Positions 765 through 30,527 of a stretch of DNA of 32,967 nt are shown here, one piece after another. Numbering within the stretch: position 1 is the stretch's first letter; the number at the start of each line of letters is the position of its first letter. Source of the stretch: an uncultured Alphaproteobacteria bacterium (GTDB lineage: Bacteria; Pseudomonadota; Alphaproteobacteria; Bin95); contig CALLKY010000102.1 of NCBI GenBank assembly GCA_938083135.1, positions 1-32,967 of the forward strand. The letters are read 5' to 3'. The translations under genes and the position numbers were made by a program. The notes under the pieces are model-generated. The model saw nothing but the letters and a program-made list of their open reading frames with translations, was not told the origin of the DNA and did no database searches.

Positions 765-1679
765 ATGATTAAGTCTATAATGCAATTCACATTTGCAGCA
801 GCGCTCGCGCTGACTACGATTATCGCGCAGCCTGCTGCTGCGGCAAATGTTGGTGCCAAAACCTGCCAAGAATGCCATCGTGCTGAGTACGATGTGTGGA
901 AAGGCACCGCACACTTCAAGGCCTATCGTGGCGCGCACAAGCACAAAAATGCAAAAGCGATCGCGGCTGCCTCCGGCACTGGCAAATCCATGCGGAAAAA
1001 CAAAACCTGCATGACCTGCCATTACACGGTAATTGGCAGCAAGGCGAAAGCTGGGCCGTCCTGCGAAAGCTGCCACGGCGGCGCTTCCAAGTGGGTAAAA
1101 ACCCATAATGACCTTGGTGCTGGTGTCAAATCATCTGCAGATGAGTCTGCTGCCCACAAGAAGTCGCGCCTGGCTGCTGCGCAAAAAGCTGGCATGATCC
1201 ATTCCTCAATGGTTTACGACATTGCCGAGAACTGTAATGCCTGCCACACCATGCAGAAGATTGACCCTGCAATGGCCGGCAAGCTGATCGATGCAGGCCA
1301 TCCAATCAATGGTAGCTATGAGCTGGTGAAGTATAGCCAGGGTCAAGTTCGCCATCGCTTCTATCCCCCGAATATCACCAAGAACCAGAAAATGAACAAG
1401 GCGGAACTGTCCCGCATGTTCCTGACTGGCCACGCTGCTGGTCTCGTCTATGCGACGAAGGTTCTGAAAAGCGCCGATAACGCAAAGTACAAAGCCGCTA
1501 TGGAACAACGCGTTGCTGATGCAAAGAAAGCAATCGGCGCAGCTAAGGGCTCTGTACCGGCTGCGGGTGCACTTCTGTCCTCACCGACGGAATCAAACGC
1601 CAGGAAGTTTGTCGCCGCGTTGCAGGGCAAGGACCTGTCCGGTGCTGTCGGCGGCATGTTGCCCTCTAAGTACAAATAG
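765..1679 (+). CDS. Periplasmic tetraheme cytochrome c (c554-like)
   Basis: A 304-residue exported multiheme cytochrome. The N-terminus (MIKSIMQF, then an Ala/Leu-rich core ending QPAAAA) is a Sec signal peptide. Four heme c sites follow: CQECH (C34), CMTCH, CESCH and CNACH. The spacing and extra histidines resemble the cytochrome c554 family of electron carriers. The last ~100 residues have no heme motif and are Ala/Lys-rich and helical. The ATG at 765 has AGGGA at 752-756 as ribosome-binding site; an in-frame ATG at 780 is less well supported. It is the first gene of a multiheme cluster, separated from the next by 124 bp with a large hairpin, so it may be expressed at a different level from the genes below it. 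Inferred role: soluble periplasmic electron shuttle between the inner-membrane and outer-membrane components. Confidence 0.85.
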   Translation: MIKSIMQFTFAAALALTTIIAQPAAAANVGAKTCQECHRAEYDVWKGTAHFKAYRGAHKHKNAKAIAAASGTGKSMRKNKTCMTCHYTVIGSKAKAGPSCESCHGGASKWVKTHNDLGAGVKSSADESAAHKKSRLAAAQKAGMIHSSMVYDIAENCNACHTMQKIDPAMAGKLIDAGHPINGSYELVKYSQGQVRHRFYPPNITKNQKMNKAELSRMFLTGHAAGLVYATKVLKSADNAKYKAAMEQRVADAKKAIGAAKGSVPAAGALLSSPTESNARKFVAALQGKDLSGAVGGMLPSKYK

Positions 1680-1706
1680 GGCGATAATACCTGCGAATCC
1701 TGAGGC

Positions 1707-1753
1707 GGTATTCGATGGAGGCATGCTGGGGTGGGCATGCCTCCATTGATACC
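1707..1753 (+). other. Large hairpin between the tetraheme cytochrome and cNMP/Fe-S genes
   Basis: ATGGAGGCATGC (1715-1726) and GCATGCCTCCAT (1735-1746) form a perfect 12-bp inverted repeat with an 8-base loop. Outside it GGTAT (1707-1711) pairs with ATACC (1749-1753) across a small internal loop. No T-run follows, so it is not a classic terminator. It could stabilise or process the mRNA so that the first cytochrome is made in excess, or it could be a protein-binding dyad. Confidence 0.8.
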
Positions 1754-1803
1754 AGCCAAAGGCCCGCGGTTTTCCGCATCACGCGCTTCAGGGGGATGGC
1801 GCT

Positions 1804-3426
1804 TTGGCCTTAGCGACAAGATTAGCCCGTCCGCAACGTTGGGATCGTCCGTTCGATCCAGGTATGACCGCGGCAGATTTGGAACAGCTAAAGCTTGATC
1901 CGGTTGTCGCCGCGATTGATGCTGACGCGTTCCCAGGGACCATCCCACTTGATGGCATTCTCGCGAACGATTCGCGGATTATTCATTACAAAGCCGGTGA
2001 GATCGTCGTTCGCGAAGGCGATTACGGTAATTCCGCATTTCTTATTATGTCCGGCGCTTGCGATGTTGTCGTAAACCCGCCGCTGACCGATGCACAGCTT
2101 GGCCGCCAAACTGAAGCGCCAGCAAGCATTGGGCGCGCGATTTCACAACTCTGGAAGCGCACTGTCGTGCCGGAAGTCCGTGACGTCAGCCGTTATGGCA
2201 ATATCGCCGTCACCGAGACAGATCATCAAGCCGTTTTTCTGCAAGATTATGGCGTTGTGCTTGGCGGGCGTAGCTTGCCGCGCCTCGGCGCGCAGCAAAT
2301 GTTCGGTGAGTTGGCCGCTCTGGGCCGCACCCCCCGCGCGGCAAGTGTCGTTTGTGTCGAAGACGCAGAGGTCCTTGAAATTCGCTGGCAGGGCCTGCGG
2401 GAACTCCGCCGGTTTGACGCTGGCTGGCGCCGCCAGATCGACACCAACTACCGCGCCAATGCGCTGATCTCGCATCTGCAGGACACGCCGCTGTTCGATG
2501 GCCTGTCCGACGACGCACTGCAATCCATTGCAGACGCGACATTGTTTGAAACATATGGCTCCTTTGATTGGAGTTCTTCGTTCCAGCGCGCCGAAAGCGA
2601 CGCGCGCCTGGGCACAGAACCCGTGATTGCACGTGAAGGCGAATATCCAGATGGCCTCTTGCTTATCCGTGCAGGGTTCGGCCGCGTTTCTGTGCGCCAA
2701 GGGGCAGCAGAACGCACACTGACTTACCTATCTGCTGGCGATCATTTCGGCTTGAGTGAGCTCTATGCTGGCTTCAAGGGCGGTGGATCACCGATGGAAG
2801 CAACACTCCGTGCCGTTGGTTACGCCGATGCATTGCGTGTGCCAACTAAGGTGCTCGAAGAGCATGTCTTCCCGCGCATGAACAAAGCGCCGGATAGCTT
2901 CCTGCAATTCGCAGCCCGTCCGTTGGCTGATGATTCGCTGCAGGAATGGGCAATTGAAGAGCGTTTCATCAACGGCACCATGGCGATGCTGATTGATTTG
3001 GATAAATGCGTGCGCTGTGACGATTGCGTGCGGGCCTGCGCGTCCACCCATGGCGGCAATCCTCGCTTTGTGCGTCACGGCAAGATCAATGACCATTGGA
3101 TGGTCGCCAATGCCTGTATGCATTGCTCTGACCCCGTTTGTATGATCGGCTGCCCAACAGGTGCCATTCACCGGACACAAGCGGGCGGCTCTGTTGTCAT
3201 CAATGATGATAGCTGCATCGGGTGCGGTACGTGCGCCAATTCCTGCCCTTACAATAATATCCGCCTTGTTGAAATTCGGGACCTATCTGGTGCCCCGGTC
3301 CAGGACGAAGCGACCGGGCAGCCCATTCGTAAGGCGACAAAGTGTGATCTTTGCGCCGGTATTCCTGGTGGCCCCGCCTGTGAGCGCGCCTGCCCGCACG
3401 GCGCTCTACAGCGCGTTGATTTTTAG
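1804..3426 (+). CDS. Dual cNMP-binding domain / four-cluster [4Fe-4S] ferredoxin fusion
   Basis: A 540-residue protein without signal peptide, hence cytoplasmic. Residues ~55-200 are a cyclic-nucleotide-binding domain with an intact-looking phosphate-binding cassette (FGELAALGRTPRAASV, keeping the Glu and Arg that contact the nucleotide). Residues ~230-370 are a second, degenerate copy (FGLSELY.., no clear Arg). From C402 the C-terminus is a DmsB/NrfC-type ferredoxin with 16 cysteines in four motifs: CVRCDDCVRAC, CMHCSDPVCMIGCP, CIGCGTCANSCP and CDLC-X8-CERACP. Such subunits normally pass electrons between a catalytic subunit and a membrane quinol or heme subunit. The TTG start has AGGGGG at 1790-1795; an ATG at 1864 is the alternative. 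The next gene starts 12 bp downstream. Inferred role: ligand-gated electron transfer between the cytoplasm and the diheme membrane subunit. Confidence 0.85.
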   Translation: MALATRLARPQRWDRPFDPGMTAADLEQLKLDPVVAAIDADAFPGTIPLDGILANDSRIIHYKAGEIVVREGDYGNSAFLIMSGACDVVVNPPLTDAQLGRQTEAPASIGRAISQLWKRTVVPEVRDVSRYGNIAVTETDHQAVFLQDYGVVLGGRSLPRLGAQQMFGELAALGRTPRAASVVCVEDAEVLEIRWQGLRELRRFDAGWRRQIDTNYRANALISHLQDTPLFDGLSDDALQSIADATLFETYGSFDWSSSFQRAESDARLGTEPVIAREGEYPDGLLLIRAGFGRVSVRQGAAERTLTYLSAGDHFGLSELYAGFKGGGSPMEATLRAVGYADALRVPTKVLEEHVFPRMNKAPDSFLQFAARPLADDSLQEWAIEERFINGTMAMLIDLDKCVRCDDCVRACASTHGGNPRFVRHGKINDHWMVANACMHCSDPVCMIGCPTGAIHRTQAGGSVVINDDSCIGCGTCANSCPYNNIRLVEIRDLSGAPVQDEATGQPIRKATKCDLCAGIPGGPACERACPHGALQRVDF

Positions 3427-3438
3427 GGGGCGCCAAGA

Positions 3439-4269
3439 ATGATCGTCCGAACAGTCAACAGCGTCCGGCCCTTCGGCTACACCCTGGCGGCCATCGGTGC
3501 CGCTGTGATCGCCGGCCTCGCTTATTATTCCCATCAGGAACACCTGAAGCTCAGTGACGCCACCTTCGTCACCGGTTGGGTGTTGCTGACTGCCATGGTT
3601 TCGCTGGCGCTTTTCAACATCCGCAAGCGTCTTTCCATGATGCCAATGGGTCGGGCAGCTTATTGGCTTGCGCTGCACGTTGTCGTTGGTCTGTTCGCCG
3701 TCGGAATGTTCATCGTCCACACTGGCGGCATATGGGCCACAGGTTTCTATGAGCAAGTGATGGCTGGATTGTTTTGGGCGACCGCCCTGTCAGGCGTCTT
3801 TGGCTGGCTCTATCAGCGGGCGATGCCAAGGCGCCTTACGCGCATCGGCTATGAAGTCGTTTATGAACGCATCCCGGCTGAAATTGCTGCCCTTCGCGAG
3901 GAAGCTGAAGAAGCTGCCCTTGAAGGCGTAGGTGCGAGCGGCGAACCAACCCTTGGCCGCTTCTATTCAGAAACCATGCAGGACTTCTTCCGCCGGCCAC
4001 GCTTTATGATAAGCCACCTTCTCGGTGCAGGCGCAGCCCAGCAATGGGTTGACCTCCGGTTCCGCACGGTGCGCGGACTTGTTGGCGCACAAGAAGAACC
4101 CGCCCTTGCCCGGCTTGAAGCCGCCGCAAGACGCAAACTCTCTATAGACGCTCATTACGCCATTCAACGCTCCTTGAAGCTTTGGGTGGCGGTTCACGTC
4201 GTGCTATCTGCAGCAATGCTAACGCTTGCGGTATGGCACCTCATCCTGGTGCATGTGTACGCCCGATGA
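3439..4269 (+). CDS. Membrane diheme cytochrome b-like subunit
   Basis: A 276-residue integral membrane protein with about five transmembrane helices: ~12-31, ~41-60, ~74-96, ~99-121 and ~247-273. A soluble segment of ~120 residues between the last two is rich in Glu, Ala and Arg. Helix 3 holds H80 and H94, and helix 5 holds H253 and H267. Both are H-X13-H pairs, the geometry that ligates two stacked b hemes in cytochrome b and formate-dehydrogenase-gamma-like subunits. I see this directly; heme binding itself is inferred. GGGGG at 3426-3430 is the ribosome-binding site. The stop overlaps the next ATG (ATGA), so it is translationally coupled to the decaheme cytochrome. Likely role: carry electrons across the inner membrane between the [4Fe-4S] protein and periplasmic hemes, perhaps exchanging with quinone. 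I do not recognise a named family. Confidence 0.8.
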   Translation: MIVRTVNSVRPFGYTLAAIGAAVIAGLAYYSHQEHLKLSDATFVTGWVLLTAMVSLALFNIRKRLSMMPMGRAAYWLALHVVVGLFAVGMFIVHTGGIWATGFYEQVMAGLFWATALSGVFGWLYQRAMPRRLTRIGYEVVYERIPAEIAALREEAEEAALEGVGASGEPTLGRFYSETMQDFFRRPRFMISHLLGAGAAQQWVDLRFRTVRGLVGAQEEPALARLEAAARRKLSIDAHYAIQRSLKLWVAVHVVLSAAMLTLAVWHLILVHVYAR

Positions 4270-6374
4270 CTGAAGACAAAAACAGCTTCGCCCACGATCG
4301 CTCCCCCTATGAGCGCCCGAATTTTCCTTTCCGGTGCGGCAGGGAAGCAGCCTTTGGCAAGCCGTGCCCGCGCGGCCCAAGCGCTGGCGGTGATTGCCAG
4401 GGGATATCGGACTGCACACCATTCCGGACACGCAAGATCGTGACAAACGCTGAAACCGGCGAAGAAACAGAGATCCAGCGATGGGAATGCCGCCGCCCGC
4501 AACATGCCGGTGGCCCCTGCGCTGAAGGTCCACGACCGGACGGCACATGCTCTTGCATCCATCCGCCATGCGCGCCTAAACCGACCATCCGTCGTCAGCG
4601 CGGCCGCTGGGCAATGCTTGCAGTCGCCGCAATGGTCGCCATGGCCTTGGCATTTGTCGGCGCTGCTGGCGGGATCATTGGCCCGAAACCAGATGCAGAC
4701 GGCATTCTTAGCCATGTTGGCTGGCCGAGTTCAGTCAACCCTGGTCCGCTTTCCGGCAAGCATGAGCAATTCACGGCCAAAGACGGCTGTATTTCGTGCC
4801 ATGTCGGGCATTCAGACACATTAACGGGCTGGGCTGGTGCACTATTCGAACGCACCACCATTTCTGAGTCCTGCGTCTCGTGCCACAGCTTCGGTGAGAA
4901 GCAGGCTGATGCCGACCCTAAAGCCCAATCGCCAATGGCATTTGCCGCTCATAACACGAAATTCCCGAATCGCACGGATGCCCCTACAGCAACCTGCACG
5001 GGCTGCCACACGGAACATAAAGGTGTGGATGCTTCGATCACGCCGATGGAAGATGGCCAGTGCTCTGCGTGCCACACCACCAAGTTCGATAGTTTCTCCA
5101 AATCCCATCCGGCGTTTGGGGCAAACTTCCCGCATGAAAGTGCGCGAACCATCAAGTTCCCGCATGGCAAGCACCTAGAAACGCATTTTGTTGACCAGCG
5201 CTATATCGACAAAGCACCAAAGAATGGCTGCGTTTCCTGCCATACAGACCAGGTTGATGGGCGTTTGCTGCCCGGCAGTTTTGAGAATGGCTGTGCCGCA
5301 TGTCATGAACTTGCGATTAAGGAACAGGGAATGGTTGTCTTCGGCCTTCCTGAATTGAGCGACCCTGAATTGACCGCGGAAGCCCGCGACTCTTGCGGCT
5401 TTCCTGTGCCGCAGCTTGAGCCGGCCCGTGCGACCCTTGAGGCCCTGGCTGAGGCACTGCCAACGATGCAGGCGCTTGGTGAAAACGCCGAATCTGGCAA
5501 CCTGAACGGCGTCATGACTGCAGTTGAGGCCTTAGGCGAGGCCCAGGCCGCGATTGCCGAAGCGCAGGATGAGCTTGCTGAGGCTGTCGACATGTCGGAA
5601 GCCGTTTCCCTTGATTCGCTCTCCCCGATCGCAGCATTCCTTCTCGCCGTCCCGGCTGATGATGCGGATGAATATAGCGAAGCAGCAGCAGCCTTCCTTA
5701 TTGCCGCTGCCGCCGAAGGGCAGGCCCCGCTTGCCGAAGCAATCGACGCGAAGGGCGGTGATGCGACCGCGCTGTTGGCTGGCCTTTCGCCTGAGTTAGT
5801 GACGGAAGTTACTTGCGCTTGGGCCGCAAACACGGAATATGAACCTAAGCAAGACCCTGAACCGGGCGCTGGTTGGACTGCGCAGGAGCTGCAAGTGTCT
5901 TATCTGCCAACAGGCCATGCGGATGCTGTGACCAAGGAATGGATTGCACTTGGCCTAGCGAATCGTGGCAGTGACGATGAAGGTGCCGAAGCTTTTGCCG
6001 ACCTCGTGCTCAGCGCGGGCGACGGGCCGGGTCGTTGCTTTAAGTGTCACGTCGCACCAGCGGCAGATGCTGAAAAACAAGTCGTGCAATGGGCTATCCC
6101 ACGCGTGGATGTTCGCCCATTCACAGCTTTCAATCATGATCCGCACTTGAATGTACTGGATCAGGGCGCTGGCTGTGCTACATGCCATCGTCAGTTGGAG
6201 CCGGGCGCAACCTTGGCTGATGGGCAATCTCGCCCAGGGCCGCATGCAAACGACTTCAAGCCGATCGACCAAGCGACTTGCAAAGACTGTCACCGCCCGG
6301 GCGGGGTTCGGCAGGATTGCGCACTTTGCCACCGCTACCATAGCAATCCGTCCATCCGGAAACGGACGATGTGA
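4266..6374 (+). CDS. Membrane-anchored decaheme cytochrome c with cytoplasmic Cys-repeat domain
   Basis: A 702-residue protein. Residues 1-114 are hydrophilic and cysteine-rich, with a duplicated C-X9-C-X9-C motif (C24/C34/C44 and C75/C85/C95) plus C50, C97 and C102. A basic stretch (RRQRGR) and one transmembrane helix (~116-139) follow, placing the Cys domain in the cytoplasm and the rest in the periplasm. Ten CXXCH sites come next: six between ~175 and 347 and four between ~591 and 689. Between the two groups lie ~243 heme-free residues, largely Ala/Glu-rich and helical, with two lone cysteines. The ATG at 4266 overlaps the previous stop (ATGA). Six-plus-four heme grouping with a long spacer is unusual compared with compact decaheme MtrA-type proteins. 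Likely role: take electrons from the b-type subunit and spread them through the periplasm. The Cys repeats may bind Zn or Fe-S; no known domain is recognised. Confidence 0.85.
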   Translation: MTEDKNSFAHDRSPYERPNFPFRCGREAAFGKPCPRGPSAGGDCQGISDCTPFRTRKIVTNAETGEETEIQRWECRRPQHAGGPCAEGPRPDGTCSCIHPPCAPKPTIRRQRGRWAMLAVAAMVAMALAFVGAAGGIIGPKPDADGILSHVGWPSSVNPGPLSGKHEQFTAKDGCISCHVGHSDTLTGWAGALFERTTISESCVSCHSFGEKQADADPKAQSPMAFAAHNTKFPNRTDAPTATCTGCHTEHKGVDASITPMEDGQCSACHTTKFDSFSKSHPAFGANFPHESARTIKFPHGKHLETHFVDQRYIDKAPKNGCVSCHTDQVDGRLLPGSFENGCAACHELAIKEQGMVVFGLPELSDPELTAEARDSCGFPVPQLEPARATLEALAEALPTMQALGENAESGNLNGVMTAVEALGEAQAAIAEAQDELAEAVDMSEAVSLDSLSPIAAFLLAVPADDADEYSEAAAAFLIAAAAEGQAPLAEAIDAKGGDATALLAGLSPELVTEVTCAWAANTEYEPKQDPEPGAGWTAQELQVSYLPTGHADAVTKEWIALGLANRGSDDEGAEAFADLVLSAGDGPGRCFKCHVAPAADAEKQVVQWAIPRVDVRPFTAFNHDPHLNVLDQGAGCATCHRQLEPGATLADGQSRPGPHANDFKPIDQATCKDCHRPGGVRQDCALCHRYHSNPSIRKRTM

Positions 6375-6385
6375 GGATTAAGACG

Positions 6386-8155
6386 ATGGAAGAGAGAAAG
6401 ATGAAATTTGGAATCCGCCCCTTGGCGCGCCAACTCCTAATTGCTGGCGCTTTCGCCGTTGCAGCATTTGGCATGCCAATGACAGCCACTGCAGCCGAAA
6501 AAGAAGATCCGCATGCGGACCTTATGGCCGAGGAAAGCTATCCAACAGCCGCCCAATGCGGAGCCTGTCACACCCAGGTCTATCGCGAATGGGCGTCGTC
6601 TAACCACGCCTACGCATCGATTTCGCCGATGTTCCATAAGTTCGAGCAGAAGATTAATGATCTCTCGAGCGGCACCATCCGCGGCTTCTGCGTACGATGC
6701 CATCAACAGATCGGCACGCAGCTCAACGAACGTCGCGACCTCCCGCTTTGGGAACGCAATCAAATTTCACGCGAAGGCATTTCCTGCGTGACGTGCCACC
6801 GCGTCCGTGAAGAATTCGGCAAGGTCAACGGCGAGCGCCGGGTCACGCCAGGTCGCGTCTTCACGCCCGTCAGCGGTGCTGGCGATGGTGAAAAGCTGAA
6901 GGAAATCATTGAGAACCGCGGCGAATACCGCGTTTCTGTCAGTGAAGAAGAACGTGGTGCGCAAATTCACACAGGCGTTTACAAATTCCCGCAGATCTCG
7001 AAGTCTGAATTCTGCGTGTCTTGTCACCAGGTTGCTGTGAACCCAGGCATTAAGCTTGAAGTCGTTTGGGAGCAATATCGGAATTCACCGGCTGCTGCCA
7101 ATGGCGTGACCTGCCAAGATTGCCATATGGGTAAAGTGCCAGGCCGGGCTGATGGATACACGACCGGGCCTGTCGCTATCGTGAATGGCGAAGAGATTGA
7201 TCCAGACCGCAAGCACTCCAACCATGCCTTCTACGGCCCTGGTTACCCAATTGCGCATCCTGGTATCTTCCCACACAATCCGGATGCAGCCGAAATCCCC
7301 ATCGAGGACTGGCTCGAATTCGACTACCGCTCTAAGTGGGGCTCGGAAGAGTTCGAAGAGAAAGTCGAGAACGGCGAAATTGATGAAGACAGCCTGCCAG
7401 CCGCATGGTCCGATTCAGTTGACCGTGAGGAAGCTTGGGAAATCATCCAGGAGAACATTGGGCTTCTGGAAGAAAAGCGCGATCTTCGCCGCCAAGTGAT
7501 GGAAAACGGTTCCCGTCTTGACGGTCCGTTCTTCGCCAGCGCGCCGAAGCAAGGGTCCTCGCTCAGCTTTGACATCAAACTGACCAATACCGATGACGGC
7601 CATAACCTGCCGTCTGGTTCTCTCGGCGCTCAGCCTGAAATTTGGCTGAACGTTGCTGTCGTGTCGCCCAGCGGCAAGACGGTATGGGAATCAGGTTACG
7701 TTGATGCGAATGGTGATATGGCTGACATCCACTCCCTAGAAGTGGCAGCTGGTAACATTGAGTACGACGACCAGCTGTTCAACCTGCAAACCAAGTTCCT
7801 GTTCACGAACGTTAAGGGGACTGAACGCGAATGGTATCTGCCGATCAATATTGATATTGATCAGCTTCCATTCATCCGCCCAGCAAACGTGCCAACGACT
7901 ATCTTGAACCATGCACCATTCATCCGCATGGAAGGTCGTTCGATCCCACCACTTGGGTTCCGTAACGCTAGCTACACCGTGCCGGCAGACGCGATGACGG
8001 AAAAAGGCACATACCAAATGGCTGTCCGCCTGCGGAGCCGCGCCGAACCGATCTACTTCATGCGGTTCGTCGAAGCGACGCCGGAAATGGAAGAAGCCAT
8101 GAACAGCTGGATGCTTGATTTCCATTCCTACACCGTGGAATTCGAAGTCAACTGA
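6386..8155 (+). CDS. Exported pentaheme cytochrome c with C-terminal heme-free domain
   Basis: A 589-residue exported protein. The start at 6386 has GAGGA at 6373-6377; a second ATG at 6401 is also preceded by a purine-rich stretch. A signal peptide runs to about TATAA (residue 37). Five heme c sites lie in the first half: CGACH (C58), CVRCH, CVTCH, CVSCH and CQDCH (C243). Residues ~248-589 have no heme motif and look beta-rich, with DDGHNLPSG, a motif resembling the GHxLPTG element seen near the C-terminus of several multiheme cytochromes. The first half resembles the c554-like multiheme family. The gene starts 11 bp after the decaheme gene, so the two are co-transcribed. It could be a periplasmic carrier, an active-site reductase, or the partner of the beta-barrel encoded next. 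No lipobox Cys is seen at the signal-peptide cleavage region, so surface lipoprotein anchoring is unlikely. Confidence 0.82.
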   Translation: MEERKMKFGIRPLARQLLIAGAFAVAAFGMPMTATAAEKEDPHADLMAEESYPTAAQCGACHTQVYREWASSNHAYASISPMFHKFEQKINDLSSGTIRGFCVRCHQQIGTQLNERRDLPLWERNQISREGISCVTCHRVREEFGKVNGERRVTPGRVFTPVSGAGDGEKLKEIIENRGEYRVSVSEEERGAQIHTGVYKFPQISKSEFCVSCHQVAVNPGIKLEVVWEQYRNSPAAANGVTCQDCHMGKVPGRADGYTTGPVAIVNGEEIDPDRKHSNHAFYGPGYPIAHPGIFPHNPDAAEIPIEDWLEFDYRSKWGSEEFEEKVENGEIDEDSLPAAWSDSVDREEAWEIIQENIGLLEEKRDLRRQVMENGSRLDGPFFASAPKQGSSLSFDIKLTNTDDGHNLPSGSLGAQPEIWLNVAVVSPSGKTVWESGYVDANGDMADIHSLEVAAGNIEYDDQLFNLQTKFLFTNVKGTEREWYLPINIDIDQLPFIRPANVPTTILNHAPFIRMEGRSIPPLGFRNASYTVPADAMTEKGTYQMAVRLRSRAEPIYFMRFVEATPEMEEAMNSWMLDFHSYTVEFEVN

Positions 8156-8192
8156 TTGGGGATCGCCGCAGGTGAATGAGGGGAATAGAAGC

Positions 8193-9731
8193 GTGACACT
8201 AAGTTTTTCAAAGATGACCGGTCGCATTGCATTGACAACAGCGGCTTCGGCTCTGGCGATGATGGTCGCCACTGGCGGTCCTGCATATGCAGCGAGTGCC
8301 CATGATGACAGCCCGCGCAAAATGGATCCGAATGTTAAACCATCGGAGCATGACGCAGACGTCTTCAAGGCGGATCCAACATACGAAGAAAAAGCGTATG
8401 ATGCGGAGCGTCAACTCGAAATCTATGGCGGCAAGCGCAACATTGAGGAGCCACGCCCGATCCTAGAGGTCGGTCGTCCGCAATATGTAGAAGGTCCATT
8501 CGACGAAGGCATTAATGTCGTTGGCGAAAAGAACCTCTTGTTCCCGTCCTTCTCGGTCTTCGGTGACTTCCGTACAGCGGTTGCCGCTAACGATGTTGGC
8601 GGCGATGTGGTCTACGAGTTCGCGAACCGCCTGAACCTGGACCTCGACCTTAAGCTCACCGGCACAGAGCGTATTCACGGGTTCTTCCGGCCGATAGATC
8701 AGAACGGCAAGTTCATGGGGTATCGAACCGGTGACAAGAACGGCAATAACGGCGTTGATGGAAAATTCGATGCCAACCCAGAAACACTGTTCTTCGAGGG
8801 CGACATCGGTGCCATTTACGGCGGCTTAGCTGACGAATATGCAACGTTTGACCTGCCAATCGCATTTGGCCTGACGCCGTTCGTTATGCAAAACGGCCTT
8901 TGGGTTGATGATGCATTTATTGGCGGTGGCATTTCACTGGCGGCATTGAACAGTCCAGCCCTTGATATCACCAATATGGACATCACCTTCTTCGGTGGGT
9001 TCAACGAAATTGATTCCCCTGCTTTCGTTGGTCGGGATGGTGTGCTCGACACCAACGATGTATCGATTTATGCAGTGGCCGCGTTCGTTGAATGGTTCGA
9101 AGGCTACTCAGAATTCGGCATCGGCTACGTTGATGGTCGCGACCTTTCTGATGATATTGACTATGTGAACTTTACCGGTGCCTTCACCTCCCGATACGGT
9201 GGTTGGCTTTCAAACTCTGTCCGCCTGTTTGGTGCTGTTGGCCAGGACACGGATGTTCGTTCCACAACTGCAAACGGTTTTGCTTTGCTGGTCGAAAACT
9301 CATTGATCACATCCAAGCCAGATGTCTATGTCCCCTACTTCAACGCCTGGGTCGGTATTGATAAGCCGCAATCCTTGGTGCGAAACAATGGTGGTCTGCT
9401 GAAAAATACCGGCATCACCTTTGAGAATGACGGCATGACCTCATTCCCGAAACTGGACGATACCGCCCAAGATACCTTTGGCGGTGCCATTGGTATCAAC
9501 TACCTATTCAGCTTGGACCAACAGCTTGTTGTGGAAGCATCCACGGTGCAGACATTGGCCGGTGACGAGGTTGCGGGCCAGCCGGCGCAAGGCGCGCAGT
9601 ACGGCCTTGGCTTCCGCTATCAGATTCCTGTCACGAACCGGGTTATCCTCCGGGCTGACGGCATCTACGGCATTCGTGAAAATGAGAAAGATATTGGCGG
9701 CGTTCGCTTCGAGGTGCGCGTTAAATTCTAA
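8193..9731 (+). CDS. Outer-membrane beta-barrel (porin-like) of the cytochrome operon
   Basis: A 512-residue protein starting at a GTG with GAGGGGAA at 8179-8186; the ATG at 8214 is an alternative. A signal peptide ends near GGPAYAASA. A charged linker of ~90 residues follows, then repeated short amphipathic stretches of alternating polar and hydrophobic residues, aromatic girdle-type residues, and a C-terminal strand ending RFEVRVKF. A terminal Phe on such a strand is typical of BAM-assembled outer-membrane barrels. No heme motif is present. I do not recognise it as MtrB or PioB, which are larger. Its position 37 bp after the pentaheme gene and before the reductase suggests it forms the outer-membrane part of the electron conduit, although it could be a substrate porin. 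Acidic Asp/Gly-rich loops such as DKNGNNGVDGKFD look like calcium-binding turns. Confidence 0.75.
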   Translation: MTLSFSKMTGRIALTTAASALAMMVATGGPAYAASAHDDSPRKMDPNVKPSEHDADVFKADPTYEEKAYDAERQLEIYGGKRNIEEPRPILEVGRPQYVEGPFDEGINVVGEKNLLFPSFSVFGDFRTAVAANDVGGDVVYEFANRLNLDLDLKLTGTERIHGFFRPIDQNGKFMGYRTGDKNGNNGVDGKFDANPETLFFEGDIGAIYGGLADEYATFDLPIAFGLTPFVMQNGLWVDDAFIGGGISLAALNSPALDITNMDITFFGGFNEIDSPAFVGRDGVLDTNDVSIYAVAAFVEWFEGYSEFGIGYVDGRDLSDDIDYVNFTGAFTSRYGGWLSNSVRLFGAVGQDTDVRSTTANGFALLVENSLITSKPDVYVPYFNAWVGIDKPQSLVRNNGGLLKNTGITFENDGMTSFPKLDDTAQDTFGGAIGINYLFSLDQQLVVEASTVQTLAGDEVAGQPAQGAQYGLGFRYQIPVTNRVILRADGIYGIRENEKDIGGVRFEVRVKF

Positions 9732-9779
9732 TCACTATCGTGCTGCTGGCCAAAGTAGCGCCGGGATTGGGGAAGAGCG

Positions 9780-11045
9780 ATGGATAATCTGGCGAACTAT
9801 GTCGCCATAGGCGCAGCTGGACTGCTGGGCCTTTACATTCTGTCTCTGTTGATGGGATCGCTCCGTCAACAGAGCCGTATGGCGCGGCATTATGAGGAAC
9901 AATCCTTGCTATTCCGCGCTCGTGCGGAAGGTTTGCAGAGGATCCGTGCTGAGGAGATCGAGAAGACCCAGAACACCTGGGCAGGTCTTCGGAAGTTCAA
10001 AGTTGCTCGTAAGGTCAATGAGATCGCGGATTGCCACTCTATCTACCTCGAGCCTCATGACGGGCGGCCTTTGCCACCGTTCGAGCCGGGCCAATTCCTA
10101 ACGTTCAAGTTCGCTGTGCCGGATCAGCCCAGCGACGTCATCCGGTGCTACTCCCTGTCCGATGCACCTGGCCGTGACTACTATCGGATTACCGTAAAAA
10201 AGGTGCTGCCGCCCCGTGGCAAGCCTGAAATCGCACCTGGCGTTTCCTCCACCTTCGTCAATGAAATTCTGAGTGAAGGCGATATCATTGATGTGCGTGC
10301 GCCCAATGGCGGGTTCTATCTAAAGCGTGAACATAAGCGCCCCGTCGTCCTGATCGGCGGCGGCGTTGGCATCACGCCTGTGCTCAGCATGCTGAACTAC
10401 ATTGTTGAGCATGAGCCGCAGCGGGAAACATGGTTCTTCTTTGGCGCACCGAATAAGGCTGGCCACATTATGAAGGATCATCTAGCCCAAATCGCGGCGG
10501 AGAACCCAAATGTCCGCATGCATATTTGCTACAGTGACCCGACCGATGACGATGTGCTTGGTGAAGATTACGACCATCACGCCCGCGTCTCTGTAGAATT
10601 GTTCAAGAAAGTTCTGCCTTCTAACAATTTTGAATACTATTTCTGCGGCCCACCGCCGATGATGAATGCGCTTGATGCAGACCTCAAAGCTTGGGGCGTA
10701 CCAGAAGCTGACATTCATTCTGAAGGCTTTGGCCCCGCTTCGGTCAAAAAGCCAAAACCACCTGCGGCGGAAGGTGCTGCAGAAGAAAAAGCTGTTTCAG
10801 TTACGTTTGCAAAATCCGGCAAAACCCTGGACTGGACACCAGCAGCTGGAACGATCCTTGATTTCGCGGAAGCGAACGGCGTTGATATCGCATCAGGGTG
10901 CCGTGCAGGGAGCTGTGGCACGTGCCTTACAGCCGTTATGGAAGGCGATGTCGATTACGAGACGCCGCCAGATGCTCCGATCGAAAATGGCTCATGCCTC
11001 GCATGTGTAGGCACGCCAAAAGGGCCGATCAAGATCAACGCCTAA
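9780..11045 (+). CDS. Membrane-anchored NAD(P)H reductase with flavin and [2Fe-2S] domains
   Basis: A 421-residue protein. An N-terminal transmembrane helix (~7-27) is followed by basic residues (RQQSRMAR), so the bulk faces the cytoplasm. Residues ~70-330 form a ferredoxin-NADP reductase-like unit: RCYSLS binds flavin, GGGVGITP is the nucleotide loop, and CGPPPMM is the usual C-terminal NAD(P) motif. Residues ~345-421 are a plant-type [2Fe-2S] ferredoxin (CRAGSCGTC, then a fourth Cys in SCLACVG). The FNR-then-ferredoxin order matches HCP reductases and some oxygenase reductases. It would take a hydride from NAD(P)H and deliver single electrons. GGGGAAGAG just before the ATG is the ribosome-binding site. 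As last gene of the operon it is the likely electron entry (or exit) at the cytoplasmic face. Confidence 0.88.
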   Translation: MDNLANYVAIGAAGLLGLYILSLLMGSLRQQSRMARHYEEQSLLFRARAEGLQRIRAEEIEKTQNTWAGLRKFKVARKVNEIADCHSIYLEPHDGRPLPPFEPGQFLTFKFAVPDQPSDVIRCYSLSDAPGRDYYRITVKKVLPPRGKPEIAPGVSSTFVNEILSEGDIIDVRAPNGGFYLKREHKRPVVLIGGGVGITPVLSMLNYIVEHEPQRETWFFFGAPNKAGHIMKDHLAQIAAENPNVRMHICYSDPTDDDVLGEDYDHHARVSVELFKKVLPSNNFEYYFCGPPPMMNALDADLKAWGVPEADIHSEGFGPASVKKPKPPAAEGAAEEKAVSVTFAKSGKTLDWTPAAGTILDFAEANGVDIASGCRAGSCGTCLTAVMEGDVDYETPPDAPIENGSCLACVGTPKGPIKINA

Positions 11046-11066
11046 ACCAAAGTCAGTCAGAAACAT

Positions 11067-11104
11067 AACGGCCCGGAACCAACAGGTTTCGGGCCGTTTT
11101 CTTT
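11067..11104 (+). terminator. Rho-independent terminator of the cytochrome operon
   Basis: AACGGCCCGGAACC (11067-11080) pairs with GGTTTCGGGCCGTT (11085-11098) over 14 bp with one G-T pair and an AACA loop. TTCTTT follows. It lies 21 bp after the reductase stop and may also serve the converging CoA-transferase gene. Confidence 0.92.
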
Positions 11105-15612: not shown

Positions 15613-18600
15613 CTAACTGGAGCCTGATGTTTGGGGGCCACCTAACGGATCGCCCCCAGTATCGTCATCGCTTGCGCCAAGGATATCATCCAGATCAGCG
15701 ACCAGATCGCGCAACACCGCTTCCTCTGAATCAAACCGATCCGCTTCATCTTCAACGAATGCGTCGACCTGCAGGTTCTCGGACGTAGGTTTGGCCGCCA
15801 ACTGCAATTCTTCGGCTGTCGCATCCTCATCCACTGCAACGCCACCTTGGCGGCCCCAGCGATCGAGCGTGGCGTTTAAGCGGCCATGGTCTATAGGCTT
15901 CGACAGGAAGTCATCCATGCCAGCGTCCATGCAGCGCTTACGGTCCTCGACCATGGCGTTTGCCGTCATTGCGACGATGGGCGTTTTGGAAGCAACATTG
16001 TCCATGGCGCGGATCTCACGGGTCGCGTCCAGGCCGTCCATCTGCGGCATCTGCATATCCATGAAGATGACATCATATTTTTTGCGCAGAACCGCAGACA
16101 GCGCTTCCAGGCCGTTTTCTGCAATATCAACGCGATGATTACCCAGCTTCAGCATCGCCGTCGCAACCATCTGGTTGACGCGATTGTCTTCCACCAGCAG
16201 CACATCCAACGGTGCCAGGAGGCCGCTGTCATCATTGGTCGGCGGATCGATGGTCACGTCTGCCACCTCGTCCTGGTTCGGGTTCAATAGCTGCCAGGAT
16301 CGCACTGGCGCCGCCACAACCCCATCGACCGCTGGCAAGGCCAGCAAGTCATCTGTATCCGCCCGTTCCTTAGAGATTACGACGATACGCCGCTCCGTGT
16401 CATGGCCCAACTTTGCGACAACAGTCACAAGGTCGTGCACGTTTAGATCTGCGCTCTCCAAAATACCAATCGTTTTGGTGCTGATTGACGGGTCATCTAA
16501 GGCCCGTAAGCCGCTTGCCGCATCATCCGCAATCAGGGCATCAGCGCCAGCATCTTCAACGGTTTTCACGATCATCTGGCGCGTTAAGCTGTCTTGGCCA
16601 ATGATCAGCCAATCGCCCGTATCTTGCGGCGGTTCAATGGATTGCGCCGTATCAGCGGGCACGAAAGGTGCCTCGACCCAGAAGCAACTCCCTTCACCAG
16701 GTGCGCTCTCAACACCAATCCGGCCGCCCATCAACTCAATCAATTGCTTTGAAATGGTCAGCCCAAGCCCGGTGCCGCCATACCGTCGCGTGGTAGATGC
16801 GTCCGCTTGGGTAAATGGCGTGAACAGCTTTTCCAGAACCTCTGCCGGAATACCGATACCAGTATCCTTAACCTCGAACCGAACCGTCGTTGTACCTGTA
16901 CTGGTTTGGCTGATCGCACGAGCGTTTATGGAGATGCTGCCCTCTTCTGTGAACTTGGTCGCATTGGACACAAGGTTCAGCAATATCTGACGGAGCCTAT
17001 TGGCATCGCCAAGCAGCCTATCTGCTAGACCAATATCTGCATAAGCAACAACTTCCAGCTGCTTAACAGCCGCGCGAGCACCCGCGATATCCAGCACGGC
17101 ATCCAGTAGACCTTTCAGGCTGAATTCTTCTGTCTCAAGCTCAATCCGCCGCGCTTCGATCTTTGAAAGATCAAGCACGTCATTAATGAGCGTCAGCAAA
17201 GCTTCGCCGGAGTTTTGGATCGTCTCGACCTGGCGGCGCTGCTCCGCCTGCATTTCGCTTTCCAGCAGCACGGACGCCATACCAAGCACGGCGTTCATTG
17301 GTGTACGGATTTCATGGCTAATCATGGCCAGGAATTCAGACTTCGCCCTATTCGCCGCCTCCGCCGCCTGGCGTGCCTCTATCAGTTCCGTCACATCGGT
17401 CCAAACGCCAACGACACCGCCTTCAGACGTTCGACGTTCATCCGAAATAATCCAACGATTACGCGTAGTTTGTTTGGTTATTGGGCCAATGTCGTTGAGG
17501 TGCTCGAACATACGTTTATCGATGAACGCTTTTCGCTCTTTGCCTGTCAACTTTCTATAATCGGCGATTGAAGACGGGATTTTTTCAAATTGCTCTCCAA
17601 TCTGCAGCCTGTAGCCGTCCAGTGGAGACATCTCACTAAATGCCTTGTTGCATGCCACTAGACGATCATCAGCATCGAACAAAGCAAATGAGTTTGTCTG
17701 GGCGTCAATCGCCTGCTCAAGCCGGCGCCGCGCAGCTGCGGCTTCTTCCATCAACCGCGCGCGCTCGCCCTCCAGCTGTTTCTCATAGTCGATTGAGAAC
17801 GCAGCACCGCGATAGCCCAAGAATTCGCCATTATCGTCAAAGAAGGGCACGCCACTGGTACGTAACCACCCGTCGTTACCGTCCGGCCCTGCGCGGATAA
17901 ATTCAAAGTCACGGAATGGTTCATGGGCAAACATTGCCCTTTCGACTTCATCAAGCTCGGACCGTACGGCCTGCACGCCAGCCGCCATAAGGTCTCGCCG
18001 CGTTTTGCCGTAATGCCATTCAGGTTTCACGCCGGCCATCCGCTCGACGCTCTCGGTCATGAAGACAAAGCGATGCTCGGCGTCTGTCTCCCATATCCAA
18101 CCTGACAGAGCCTGCGTGGTGTCATTCATGCGCTCGACCGCTAAGCCGCGCTCGCGCTCGATCAGCTCTTGGCCACGCAATAGCTTCAGTTCATAGGCCT
18201 TCCGGTCCGCAATATCGTGCCACTCGATGAGGGCAGCAGGTTGGTCGCCATAGGCAATCCGCGTTGAGGAGACCTGCACATCCAGCGGTGATCCATCCAG
18301 CCGCGTATGTCGCCATTCGAACCGCGTACTCCCATCCAGGCGAATAATCGTGGCATTCTCGCGGACACGCTCGGCGGACAATGCTCCATCTGGCTGATAT
18401 TCCGGGGAAATCGCATCCATATGGAGCCCGATGATCTGCTCCTTCTGCGCCGCGCCGATAAGCGACAATGCGGCAGCATTACAGTCGACAATAACAGACT
18501 CTCTCACAATCAGGTGGCCCGTCGTGGATCGTTCGAACAGTGCCTTAAACCGTGCTTCCGCTTCGAAGCTGTCTGTGACGTCACGGAGAAGCCAAACTTC

Positions 18601-20562
18601 AGCCTCGTCAGCCCGATACCCGGCCCACTCCACCTGGCGTATCGAACCATCTGGTTTACGGATGGGGAAACTCAGGGAACGGGAGAAGCCTGTACGAACT
18701 TCTTCTTCGTAGGTCTCCCGCGCTGGGATTTCAGGCCTAACCGGCACCAGGCGGAACCAGTCATCCAAGCTGGTCAGCTCATCCCGTGATCGGCCCGTCA
18801 TCTCCTCAACATAGGCATTGATCGTCATTTGCCCGTTTTCGACATAGACAGCACCGGCTGGCAGCAATTCCACCATGTGGGCAAGTCTACGCTCAGACGC
18901 TGCCAAGCGTTGCTCCGCGCGCCGACGCTCTGTGATGTCGTAACCAACTGTTACGAGACCGATGCTTTCCCCCGCTTCATTGAGCTGCGGGTATTTCATA
19001 ATATGCAGAATGTAATCGCCAGCCGGTCGTTCGAGCTCTAGCGGTTTACCGGTTTCCAAAACAAGCCGGTCCCGAGCGTCAATGGCCCGGCCCATATCGG
19101 TTGGAATAGCGTCCGCCATCCGCTTGCCAACGCCGTCGCTGTCCTGCTCGAGGTTGAATACCTGGGCAAAACGCTTGTTGTAGATCAGTAACCTGCCATT
19201 CGGGTCTTTGACGCTAACTGTCGCTGGCAGCTGATCAATCACCGCGCGGAGAAGCTGTTCGGACGCTGCGACTGCTGCTCGCGATGCCGCAAGCTCCAAC
19301 TCACCCTGCCGTTCCTTATTGATGTCACTGGTGACGCCCCGATAGCCCAGGAATTTGCCACTCGGGGTGAACATCGGCGAACCGGAACACCGGACCCATA
19401 CGGTTCCGTTGGTTTTCGTATCAATGCCGTATTCAAAGTTCTTGAACGGTCGCCGGGCCTCCAAGTCAACAATATGCGGCTGCCATTCGGGATGATCCTC
19501 TGGCACTTGAACCCGCGCGAGCTGCCAGCGTGTTTTACCGAAAAGACCGTCGAGCGCCCCTTCTTCGAGCTCCTCGCCGACTGCCCTGATGTGGGTCAAT
19601 CGATGCTCTGCATCTGTCTCCCAGAAAACGTCGGCGCTTGCCCGTGCCCAATCCGCAAGCCGCTGCTCGCTCTCAGCTGCCAATTTCTTCGCTCTTGCGC
19701 GCTCACGATCCGATCTGGATGCGCGAACAGCCATTATCGATGCTGCCAGCACAAGCACGATTGCAATGGCTAAAGAAAACGGGAATCGCCCAAGCCAGCA
19801 GGCGAGTACCGCCGAGTGTGGCTGCGAAAATGTTACGTAAAGCTGATGCTTAGGGTCGTACCGCCAGCCTACAAGCCGATGAGAGCCATCCGTGTTGATG
19901 GCCTCGATATCCGATACGCCACTCATCGCACCGGACTGCTTTATCGCCTGGAACAATGGCCCCTTGCTAGCGTCCTTACCAACAAGCCCTTCCAACATTG
20001 GCCTGCGCCACCAAATTTGACCATCCGCCGTCGCGATTGCGATGGAATCTGCTGCGTCTTCTCCGATATCGGTCCAAAGGCTGCTTAGCCGATCGAGTTC
20101 AATTGTGGTGGCTAGGACATGGTTATCGCGATCAAGCGTTGCGAGAATGGCCCGCCATTTACCGTCAAGTTGGAATGGGAGGCTAAGTCCCGGTCGACCG
20201 TCCCGCCTGTTGGCGATCGCTTGGCGTATTGGCTTTGATAGACTGGCGGAAACCAGATCAATATCTGGCGCAACAATTATGCCTTCAGCCGCACCATCTG
20301 CCGCTCCAAAAACAATCCCATCGCGGATATAGCGCGGTTTATCAGCAACCGCAGCGAGGCGCGCCTCTGCATTTTCCAACATAATTGAAAGCGGGAGATG
20401 GGCGGTTCGACTTTGATGGAGAAGATTGCGGCTAACGAAATATCGCGAATCATTCCAAGACCATGCAGCCCAAAGTGCCACAGCCATCATCAGACCTGCG
20501 ATGAGAGCCGCAATCGCCCACTTCGATTCAAGTCGGTATAGTGGCAGCCGCGCTTTCGCCAT
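15613..20562 (-). CDS. Large membrane hybrid histidine kinase with multiple PAS domains
   Basis: A 1649-residue sensor kinase. Two transmembrane helices (~14-35 and ~257-281) bracket a ~220-residue periplasmic sensor. About six PAS-type domains follow up to ~1060, several closing with the typical VGYDITERR or GYRGVTSDI ending. The kinase core has SHEIRTPMN with phosphorylated His H1083, NLVSNATKF, DTGIGIP, FTPFTQAD and GTGLGLTIS. Next come a degenerate receiver-like segment (~1330-1440, DWLIIGQDSL, lacking the acidic pocket) and a true receiver with VLLVEDN, phospho-acceptor D1502 in FMDMQMP and the Lys in FLSKPI. The acidic ~80-residue tail has no Hpt domain, so a separate phosphotransfer protein is needed. 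No response regulator is adjacent. GGTGAG precedes the ATG. The stimulus is unknown. Confidence 0.92.
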   Translation of the reverse strand: MAKARLPLYRLESKWAIAALIAGLMMAVALWAAWSWNDSRYFVSRNLLHQSRTAHLPLSIMLENAEARLAAVADKPRYIRDGIVFGAADGAAEGIIVAPDIDLVSASLSKPIRQAIANRRDGRPGLSLPFQLDGKWRAILATLDRDNHVLATTIELDRLSSLWTDIGEDAADSIAIATADGQIWWRRPMLEGLVGKDASKGPLFQAIKQSGAMSGVSDIEAINTDGSHRLVGWRYDPKHQLYVTFSQPHSAVLACWLGRFPFSLAIAIVLVLAASIMAVRASRSDRERARAKKLAAESEQRLADWARASADVFWETDAEHRLTHIRAVGEELEEGALDGLFGKTRWQLARVQVPEDHPEWQPHIVDLEARRPFKNFEYGIDTKTNGTVWVRCSGSPMFTPSGKFLGYRGVTSDINKERQGELELAASRAAVAASEQLLRAVIDQLPATVSVKDPNGRLLIYNKRFAQVFNLEQDSDGVGKRMADAIPTDMGRAIDARDRLVLETGKPLELERPAGDYILHIMKYPQLNEAGESIGLVTVGYDITERRRAEQRLAASERRLAHMVELLPAGAVYVENGQMTINAYVEEMTGRSRDELTSLDDWFRLVPVRPEIPARETYEEEVRTGFSRSLSFPIRKPDGSIRQVEWAGYRADEAEVWLLRDVTDSFEAEARFKALFERSTTGHLIVRESVIVDCNAAALSLIGAAQKEQIIGLHMDAISPEYQPDGALSAERVRENATIIRLDGSTRFEWRHTRLDGSPLDVQVSSTRIAYGDQPAALIEWHDIADRKAYELKLLRGQELIERERGLAVERMNDTTQALSGWIWETDAEHRFVFMTESVERMAGVKPEWHYGKTRRDLMAAGVQAVRSELDEVERAMFAHEPFRDFEFIRAGPDGNDGWLRTSGVPFFDDNGEFLGYRGAAFSIDYEKQLEGERARLMEEAAAARRRLEQAIDAQTNSFALFDADDRLVACNKAFSEMSPLDGYRLQIGEQFEKIPSSIADYRKLTGKERKAFIDKRMFEHLNDIGPITKQTTRNRWIISDERRTSEGGVVGVWTDVTELIEARQAAEAANRAKSEFLAMISHEIRTPMNAVLGMASVLLESEMQAEQRRQVETIQNSGEALLTLINDVLDLSKIEARRIELETEEFSLKGLLDAVLDIAGARAAVKQLEVVAYADIGLADRLLGDANRLRQILLNLVSNATKFTEEGSISINARAISQTSTGTTTVRFEVKDTGIGIPAEVLEKLFTPFTQADASTTRRYGGTGLGLTISKQLIELMGGRIGVESAPGEGSCFWVEAPFVPADTAQSIEPPQDTGDWLIIGQDSLTRQMIVKTVEDAGADALIADDAASGLRALDDPSISTKTIGILESADLNVHDLVTVVAKLGHDTERRIVVISKERADTDDLLALPAVDGVVAAPVRSWQLLNPNQDEVADVTIDPPTNDDSGLLAPLDVLLVEDNRVNQMVATAMLKLGNHRVDIAENGLEALSAVLRKKYDVIFMDMQMPQMDGLDATREIRAMDNVASKTPIVAMTANAMVEDRKRCMDAGMDDFLSKPIDHGRLNATLDRWGRQGGVAVDEDATAEELQLAAKPTSENLQVDAFVEDEADRFDSEEAVLRDLVADLDDILGASDDDTGGDPLGGPQTSGSS

Positions 20563-26785: not shown

Positions 26786-28309
26786 CTAACTTTCCGTTCC
26801 GAAATCAAAAATGCCAGCGCCCGTCGGCGCGTTCGGCGTGACAGCGCCATGCGCTGCTGTTGGATTTAGGGCGAGAAGACCCGCCGCGTCCAGTCCGCCA
26901 AGGGATAATGTTTGCGTCACCACCCGCGCGGCCTCACCTTGCCCAAGCAAAGGTTCTGCCAGACGGGTGAATTTGGTGACATAATCCGCTTCCTGCCAGG
27001 GTGCCGCACCATTCGGATGCGCATCCGCCGCAGCCTTCTCGAAGTTCAGAACCTCACCAGATTTCAGCGTCAATTCCAACCGGCCGCCATAAGCACGTTC
27101 GGTTGGATCATCGGCGTGATATCTGCGCGTCCATTCATCGTCGAGCATTGTTTCAACGCGGTTCCACAAAGCCACAGTCCTCTCACGGCCCGCCCGTTCC
27201 GGCGTATAACTGGCTTCATGGTCCCAGGCACGGTCTTCAAGCGCGACTGCGAGGATATACATGATGGAGTGATCCAAGGTCTCACGGCTGGCCTTCGGGT
27301 CCATCTTCTGGGGATCATTCGCACCGGTACCGATCACAAAATGTGTGTGGTCTGATGTGTGCAGCACAGCCCGTTCAATCATCGCAGGATCAACCGCAGC
27401 GCGGGCTTCAAACGCCAGATCAATGATCGCTTGGGCCTGATATTCCGCCGAATGTGCTTTCGGGAATGTCTCTAGAATCCCGGCGGGCGGCGCGCCGCGT
27501 ATCGGCAGGCGGACCGTGTATCGTGCGTCCTTACCGGCGAGCATCCACGGAATGATTGAGTCTTCGCCCTCATAAATCGGATTAGGCGCACCCTCACCCC
27601 GCATAGCCCGATCAAGCGCCTCAACGGCGATCTTGCCAGCCTGCGCCGGGGCATATGCTTTCCACGAGCTAATATCGCCCTTGCGCGATTGCCGGGTCGC
27701 AAAACTCAGGTGGACCGCCTGATTGATCGCTTCATAGATCACACGCGGTGCCACACCCATGAGTGATCCTGCACCTGCTGCAATTGCCGGTGCCAAATGA
27801 GCCACATGGTCTTTCTTGAAAGAATGCAGATCAATCGCACGGACCAAGGCCACGTGGATTTCATAGGCAATGGCAATCGCACGGGTTAGCGCAACGCCGC
27901 TCCGCCCCGTCTGCTGCGCCACGGCCAGGAGCGGTGCGATACAGTCACTTGGGTGGGCGAAGTCTGCGGCGAGATAGGTATCGTTGTAGTCCAGTTCCCG
28001 AACAGCGACGCCATTGGCAAACCCGGCCCATTCACAATCGACACGAATATCTGGGCTCAACCCAAGCAATGCCGCGCCGCCTGCACGCGGATGCGCCAAC
28101 GCCATTGCCCGGGCAGAAGCCACAGGACTGCGATTGATCGCCGCCAGGCCCACGGCAAAGCTATCGAGCACCCGCAGCCGCACCATCTGGCCGATGTCTG
28201 GCGGAATATCTGGCGAGGACGCTGCCCAGGCGGCCATGCGGCCAGCCAACTGCTCTTCCCAATGGGGAGTCTCACCCGAAGGAAGTGCGCGGATTGTGTA
28301 ATCCCGCAT
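26786..28309 (-). CDS. MmgE/PrpD family dehydratase, copy 1
   Basis: 507 residues of the 2-methylcitrate dehydratase / cis-aconitate decarboxylase superfamily. Helical N-terminal features include RLRVLDSFAVGLAA, FANGVAVRELDYNDTY, HPSDCIAPLLAVAQ, AYEIHVAL and the DHVAHLAPAIAAGAG stretch. The C-terminal alpha/beta lid contains FPKAHSAEYQAQAIIDLA and DHSIMYILAVAL, positions where the family has substrate-contacting His residues. It is somewhat longer than typical. ATG and the prpB stop share one base (TGATG), so it is coupled to the lyase gene upstream. Together they would perform dehydration (or hydration) and retro-aldol cleavage of a tricarboxylate. Only 27-30% type divergence from copy 2 is expected by eye; the two are not recent duplicates. 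Confidence 0.9.
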   Translation of the reverse strand: MRDYTIRALPSGETPHWEEQLAGRMAAWAASSPDIPPDIGQMVRLRVLDSFAVGLAAINRSPVASARAMALAHPRAGGAALLGLSPDIRVDCEWAGFANGVAVRELDYNDTYLAADFAHPSDCIAPLLAVAQQTGRSGVALTRAIAIAYEIHVALVRAIDLHSFKKDHVAHLAPAIAAGAGSLMGVAPRVIYEAINQAVHLSFATRQSRKGDISSWKAYAPAQAGKIAVEALDRAMRGEGAPNPIYEGEDSIIPWMLAGKDARYTVRLPIRGAPPAGILETFPKAHSAEYQAQAIIDLAFEARAAVDPAMIERAVLHTSDHTHFVIGTGANDPQKMDPKASRETLDHSIMYILAVALEDRAWDHEASYTPERAGRERTVALWNRVETMLDDEWTRRYHADDPTERAYGGRLELTLKSGEVLNFEKAAADAHPNGAAPWQEADYVTKFTRLAEPLLGQGEAARVVTQTLSLGGLDAAGLLALNPTAAHGAVTPNAPTGAGIFDFGTES

Positions 28310-29241: not shown

Positions 29242-29265
29242 GACCCGTCCCCCGCCCTTTGTCAG

Positions 29266-29296
29266 TTCCTTGGCTCTTGCGTGGAGGGCCAAGGAA
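29266..29296. promoter_or_regulatory. Dyad between divergent prpB and prpF operons, probable operator
   Basis: TTCCTTGGC (29266-29274) and GCCAAGGAA (29288-29296) are perfect 9-base inverted arms, 22 bp centre to centre, two helical turns. It lies in the 98-bp divergent spacer, 25 bp from prpB and 43 bp from prpF, where one dimeric regulator could control both operons. No regulator gene is adjacent. Confidence 0.6.
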
Positions 29297-29339
29297 ACTC
29301 AATAATCTGGATCATACCGCGCCTTTTGGAGGACGCCAG

Positions 29340-30518: not shown

Positions 30519-30527
30519 GAATATCTG

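Follow-up and report, generated by a model that had tools for sequence, protein, structure and literature searches.

Outer-membrane barrels and multiheme cytochromes are combined in several described systems. In MtrAB, MtoAB, and PioAB, the two together span the cell envelope, with the 26 strands of MtrB sheathing MtrA (PMC7198977). A different set of genes, the putative porin-cytochrome cluster PCC4, was catalogued in 2017 and, as described in the main text of that survey, consists of a porin, periplasmic cytochromes with 4, 5, and 10 hemes, a five-TM inner-membrane protein, and further redox genes (He et al., 2017; PMC5566968). Subgroup I was placed in Hyphomicrobium and Subgroup II, which has a pfam13247 Fe-S gene upstream of the inner-membrane gene, elsewhere. 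The same text places PCC4 in the habitats of Fe(II) oxidizers and proposes that electrons flow inward to the quinone pool (PMC5566968). PCC4 is named once in a 2026 paper, and no functional test of it was found in the open full-text literature, a body of work that takes in few of the subscription papers. The nearest system with a phenotype is the Geobacter cluster extHIJKLMNOPQS, in which the porin ExtI lies beside the pentaheme ExtKL of the PHC family and is accompanied by 10-heme and 4-heme cytochromes and a cytochrome b (PMC5877670). Without ExtI, selenite and tellurite are reduced less well, whereas Fe(III) citrate reduction is not lowered (PMC5877670).

The operon analysed here is almost certainly PCC4. 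It lies in a window of 32,967 nucleotides (the whole stretch of DNA that was analysed) and consists of seven ORFs, P1 to P7, all on the + strand from 765 to 11045, with 4, 0, 0, 10, 5, 0, and 0 CXXCH motifs, respectively, 19 in total. A porin is thus encoded together with cytochromes of 4, 5, and 10 hemes; P3 has five TM segments, an SGXXG motif, and two WX3HX13H motifs; and P2, which matches PF13247 (8.8e-9), ends 12 bp upstream of P3, as in Subgroup II. Among the features tested, the operon does not differ in gene content from PCC4 as its published main text presents it. The system as such is thus already known, and what is new relative to that text is a third architecture with a fused TrxR-like domain and the OprD-like character of the barrel. 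The seven ORFs, the 19 CXXCH motifs, the tight spacing, and the terminator were all confirmed on the sequence. It also stands that the operon has no obvious catalytic subunit, that its parts together reach from the cytoplasm to the outer membrane, and that these parts differ from MtrA/B/C and PioAB, MtrB/PioB being absent from the genome. From P2 to P7 (1804-11045), spacing ranges from 4-base overlaps, between genes 3 and 4 and between genes 4 and 5, to about 48-58 bp. The P1-P2 gap of 124 bp contains a stem-loop (1712..1750, + strand; -62.3 kcal/mol, fold z -4.7) that has no T run and is possibly an mRNA processing or stability element. An intrinsic terminator with a 14-bp stem and a T-rich tail (11067..11098, + strand; fold z -7.4) marks the operon end.

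On the cytoplasmic side, P7 (9780..11045) is a membrane-anchored NAD(P)H-FAD-[2Fe-2S] reductase of the Hmp/BenC/NqrF type, with an N-terminal TM segment at residues 8-26 and matches to PF00175 (8.8e-21) and PF00111 (1.5e-12). P2 (1804..3426, TTG start) joins cNMP-binding domains (PF00027, 4.8e-24; two to three domain matches) to a ferredoxin part that matches Fer4 families, and the 16 Cys counted in that part, arranged in DmsB-like order, would provide for four [4Fe-4S] clusters. Its phosphate-binding cassette reads FGELAALGRTPRAAS, and the canonical form FGELAALGRxPRxAS is kept in the first cNMP domain of P2 in the loci of types A and B described below, which makes ligand binding by this domain plausible. 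P3 (3439..4269) is identified as a diheme b-type membrane protein from its motifs and predicted TM segments. It carries W76-x3-H80-x13-H94, S118-G-x-x-G122, and W249-x3-H253-x13-H267, the HX13H pairs having bis-b-heme spacing, and the four His, both Trp, and both Gly are invariant among 28 homologues. Assignment of P3 to the NOX/ferric-reductase family was rejected, as no Pfam match to that family was obtained and the HX13H spacing is all that is shared; a search of the P3 profile against solved structures returned chance matches only. P4 (4266..6374) comprises an N-terminal cytoplasmic domain with eight Cys (Cys8), one TM helix at about residues 116-134, and a periplasmic part with 10 CXXCH motifs. 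The Cys8 domain (window 4266-4650) is an undescribed element built of two four-Cys repeats; it found no relative in Pfam or PDB and is possibly a cytoplasmic metal or Fe-S site. In the periplasm, P1 (765..1679) is a c554-like tetraheme cytochrome c with a signal peptide and matches to PF13435 (1.6e-10) and NCBIfam Cyt554 (4.8e-12).

P5 (6401..8155, with an alternative GTG start at 6371) is a pentaheme cytochrome that belongs to the family of ExtKL and Thermochromatium tepidum c552, the PHC family defined in PMC11976967, as it combines a five-heme domain with the Ig-like C-terminal domain of the PHC fold. In profile searches it matched T. tepidum c552 (5ze8, 2e-13), the selenoprotein MccSep, and c554. 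Its AF2 model (pLDDT 81.8) has 5ze8 as the best structural match, with Z 21.8 over 351 of 385 residues; the T. tepidum protein thus shares the full-length fold and the five hemes at 17% identity in the structural alignment. ExtKL and MccSep carry selenocysteine in the C-terminal domain, whereas P5 has Ser407 at the position aligned with that of MccSep, and GHNLPSGS strongly predominates among the forms that the motif takes. Five His outside the heme motifs (69, 190, 275, 286, and 401) are invariant and would suffice to give each of the five hemes a second His ligand; with five candidate distal ligands for five hemes, none is obviously left free to act in catalysis. Homology to the Geobacter ext cluster was assessed for P5 and ExtKL alone and is weak at the sequence level, and the ext cluster has features of its own, namely a Rieske/cytochrome b input, the 12-heme ExtM, and a rhodanese, and lacks an NAD(P)H module. 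On plasmids, P5 found distant matches only (20-26%).

The barrel P6 (8214..9731) begins with a periplasmic stretch of about 80 residues and is predicted by a single-chain AF2 model (pLDDT 82.7), from which both strand count and pore type are taken, to be an OprD/Occ-like pore of about 18 strands. It matches OprD/Occ porins in fold (Z 25-27) and has no Pfam match. With inward and outward residues assigned by the in/out pattern of the strands, mean conservation is 0.78 inward and 0.59 outward (p 8e-10), and 43 inward positions are conserved at 95% or more as against 9 outward ones, many of the conserved inward residues being Arg, Asp, Glu, or Asn. This pattern agrees with a selective pore, or with a lumen occupied by a ligand or partner, and only poorly with a general diffusion porin. 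The initial annotation had likened the operon to an Mtr/Pio conduit, of which the envelope-spanning set of parts stands, but a wire of P5 or P4 threaded through P6 is unlikely given 18 predicted strands as opposed to 26 in MtrB, and the MtrAB-like picture is weakened to the extent that the model can be trusted. Judged by barrel geometry, 18 strands would not leave room for an entire pentaheme protein. PF11854 (MtrB/PioB) matched neither P6 nor any other protein of the host genome; with this absence and the 18-strand model in place of a sheath-wide barrel of about 26 strands, membership in MtrAB/PioAB was rejected. MtrB is also missing from the 50 best fold matches of P6, which by itself excludes nothing.

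The initial annotation made its interpretation depend on whether the genes co-occur elsewhere, and the core set does. A GTDB genome scan with P5 gave 321 relatives, of which 80 were kept, further loci were added, and profile searches were run. Of the 42 loci in which P5 is flanked by 7.5 kb or more in both directions, 37 have P1, P3, P4, P5, and P6 together, a figure conditional on loci having been picked by P5, for which a phylum sample and a search for P3 in trans serve as independent checks. The other five loci have P5-P6, with or without P1, and in each of these genomes P3 is found elsewhere, adjoining P4 and P2, with P7 in three of the five sets and a long P2 of type-B size in two. One of the five is the complete Uabimicrobium chromosome, on which record coordinates place the two halves over 4 Mb from each other. 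Heme counts are steady across copies: P5 has 5 in 88 of 89, P4 has 10 in 61 of 65, and P1 has 4 in 65 of 71, at least some exceptions being cut or merged ORFs. Such recurrence of both the genes and their heme counts indicates that the set is more than chance. Records with the full set are labelled as Alpha-, Beta-, or Gammaproteobacteria, Verrucomicrobiota, Planctomycetota, or Myxococcota, and the genes are also carried by isolates, among them Hyphomicrobium facile DSM 1565 and Solimonas terrae. Among 398 sampled Pseudomonadota genomes other than the host, P5 was found in 3 and P6 in 4 (in a listing that includes the host), as three adjacent P5-P6 pairs and a fourth P6 at a contig edge; in this sample the two are rare and travel together.

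An NAD(P)H module, which the initial annotation had identified in P7, proved to be the constant part of the cluster: 36 of the 37 complete loci have one NAD(P)H flavoprotein module and no more, drawn from three types that can replace one another. Type A, as in this operon, pairs P2 with P7 (6 complete loci, plus shorter ones); type B has a TrxR-like FAD domain fused to P2 (7 loci); and type C has a Fer2-FNR protein and no P2 (23 loci). Subgroup I of PCC4 is type C and Subgroup II is type A; the main text of He et al. (2017) makes no mention of type B. The remaining complete locus, L032, has P2 and no P7 that could be found, and a TrxR fusion suggested by its length was ruled out by a check of the Rossmann motif. 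In the P5 tree, loci of like type group strongly together, type A being the widest and type C forming one side of a branch, though the exact number of type changes is unreliable since the label of L032 is wrong and that of L053 probably so. The cytoplasmic N-terminus of P4 covaries with type, being FHA-like in type B and absent in type C, and the Cys8 domain occurs in 23 type-A loci and in no type-C locus. An FHA domain, as in type-B P4, is also found in P7 of Candidatus Uabimicrobium amorphum (L124 5899-7512), where it hints at phospho-dependent regulation.

These modules bear on the direction of flow, which the initial annotation had left open. NAD(P)H oxidation is the normal activity of the families to which P7 and the TrxR-like module belong, although FNR-type flavoproteins can run backwards, and the membrane potential favours outward electron movement. 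Given these families and this potential, export is the best reading. It is further favoured by the recurrence of NAD(P)H reductases together with the absence of RuBisCO over the cut-off in 11 of 12 carriers, the host included. The host has two COX1-family (heme-copper) oxidases, and no further C554 or Cytochrom_c3_2 family gene was found in its genome. An aerobe with one conduit and no CBB cycle is unlike a chemolithoautotrophic Fe(II) oxidizer, an argument that covers CO2 fixation by RuBisCO and the CBB cycle.

We therefore favour, tentatively and at a little below an even chance, a PCC4-type delivery of NAD(P)H electrons outward to a small acceptor reduced at the pore P6. From the gene set, motifs, co-occurrence, family relations, and predicted folds, we infer an electron order, a direction, gating, docking, and an acceptor as follows. 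Electrons would pass from NAD(P)H to the FAD and [2Fe-2S] of P7 and then to the [4Fe-4S] clusters of P2, where a cyclic nucleotide bound to the intact cassette would probably gate the flow and the Cys8 domain of P4 perhaps joins the step. P2 would reduce the two b hemes of P3, which would carry electrons across the inner membrane to the decaheme P4, and from there P1 and P5 would follow, an order suggested by location and cofactors. P5 would sit where the selective 18-strand pore opens to the periplasm and reduce a small acceptor that P6 admits, such as a metal chelate, a metalloid oxyanion, or a redox shuttle. As outward flow with the membrane potential wastes energy, the role is probably not energy-conserving respiration and would more probably be protective, assimilative, or redox-balancing. 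Apart from the NAD(P)H modules, counted in favour of this reading are the P3/P4/P2 sets in trans, the invariant HX13H pairs of P3, the cNMP cassette, the covariation of P4 with type, the family of P5 with the ExtI phenotype, the lumen of P6, and the oxidases without RuBisCO. Counted against it are the reversibility of FNR flavoproteins, the published inward model, the apparently saturated heme ligands of P5, and the conserved P6 lumen, which also suits a barrel holding part of a partner. A bolder form, which we regard as unlikely, is a trans-envelope reductase that is widespread, draws on NAD(P)H, is gated by cyclic nucleotides, and has had its input module exchanged among three designs; second messengers would then switch the flow and the substrate would meet electrons at the pore. 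If PCC4 exports NAD(P)H electrons, it would serve electron disposal or the reduction of an outside substrate in carriers that mostly lack RuBisCO, which would change the meaning of the wide presence of a cluster proposed as an Fe(II)-oxidation conduit. Besides Hyphomicrobium, many uncultured bacteria of marine and fresh waters carry it, and direct tests could build on the intact cassette for cyclic nucleotides and on the exchangeability of the input modules.

The same outward direction is kept if P5 reaches the outside through or alongside P6, so that NAD(P)H electrons are exported to insoluble or extracellular acceptors such as minerals, electrodes, or partner cells. The envelope-spanning set with its 19 c hemes and the almost constant adjacency of P5 and P6 in the loci surveyed speak for such a true trans-outer-membrane conduit, as does the discussion of PHC proteins as relatives of cytochrome nanowires (PMC11976967). 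It is made rather unlikely by the predicted 18-strand OprD-like barrel compared with 26 strands in MtrB (PMC7198977), by the lack of a surface cytochrome in the operon, and by the Fe(III) citrate reduction retained in the mutant of ExtI, itself a loose analogue of P6 (PMC5877670).

Reversal of the direction gives the model of He et al. (2017), in which electrons from an extracellular donor of the Fe(II) or Mn(II) type move inward to quinone or NAD(P)+. That PCC4 is reported, in the main text, from genomes of Fe(II) oxidizers, Hyphomicrobium, and drinking-water filters (PMC5566968) agrees with uptake, yet the constant partner here is one of three kinds of NAD(P)H reductase, where that text leads electrons into the quinone pool. 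Passage from Fe(II) through the b hemes to NAD(P)+ would run uphill against the membrane potential, and with RuBisCO missing as described, we consider uptake improbable. Slightly more doubtful still is P5 as a periplasmic reductase with P6 a mere co-transcribed uptake porin, for the selenocysteine that MccSep, a PHC homologue, has at the position aligned with P5 Ser407 and the classing of cable-bacteria PHCs as potentially catalytic (PMC11976967) are met by a Ser, rather than Sec or Cys, at the P5 site and by five invariant distal-His candidates for five hemes.

A constant catalytic partner gene was sought among the inspected neighbours of the relatives and rejected, as none of those seen (YceI, cytochrome b561, a TPR protein, xanthine-dehydrogenase-like genes, and housekeeping genes) recurs constantly. 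Just 5′ of the operon, the window holds an apparently broken IS481-family transposase remnant (138-308, within ORF 48-470) that is 87% identical to annotated IS481 copies on plasmids. Downstream lie a hybrid histidine kinase of 1649 aa with many PAS domains (15613-20562) and, at 26786-31886, PrpD/MmgE, PEP mutase/isocitrate lyase-like, and PrpF genes with a CoA-transferase close by, probably a 2-methylcitrate-like catabolic region. A second, divergent P5/P6 subfamily was also observed (L107, L108, L109, L110, L111, and L126), with P5 about 35-42% identical, the motif GHxVPTGF, and a weak P6 match. Most of its loci have the same seven genes, and some genomes (G004 and G451) contain both subfamilies.
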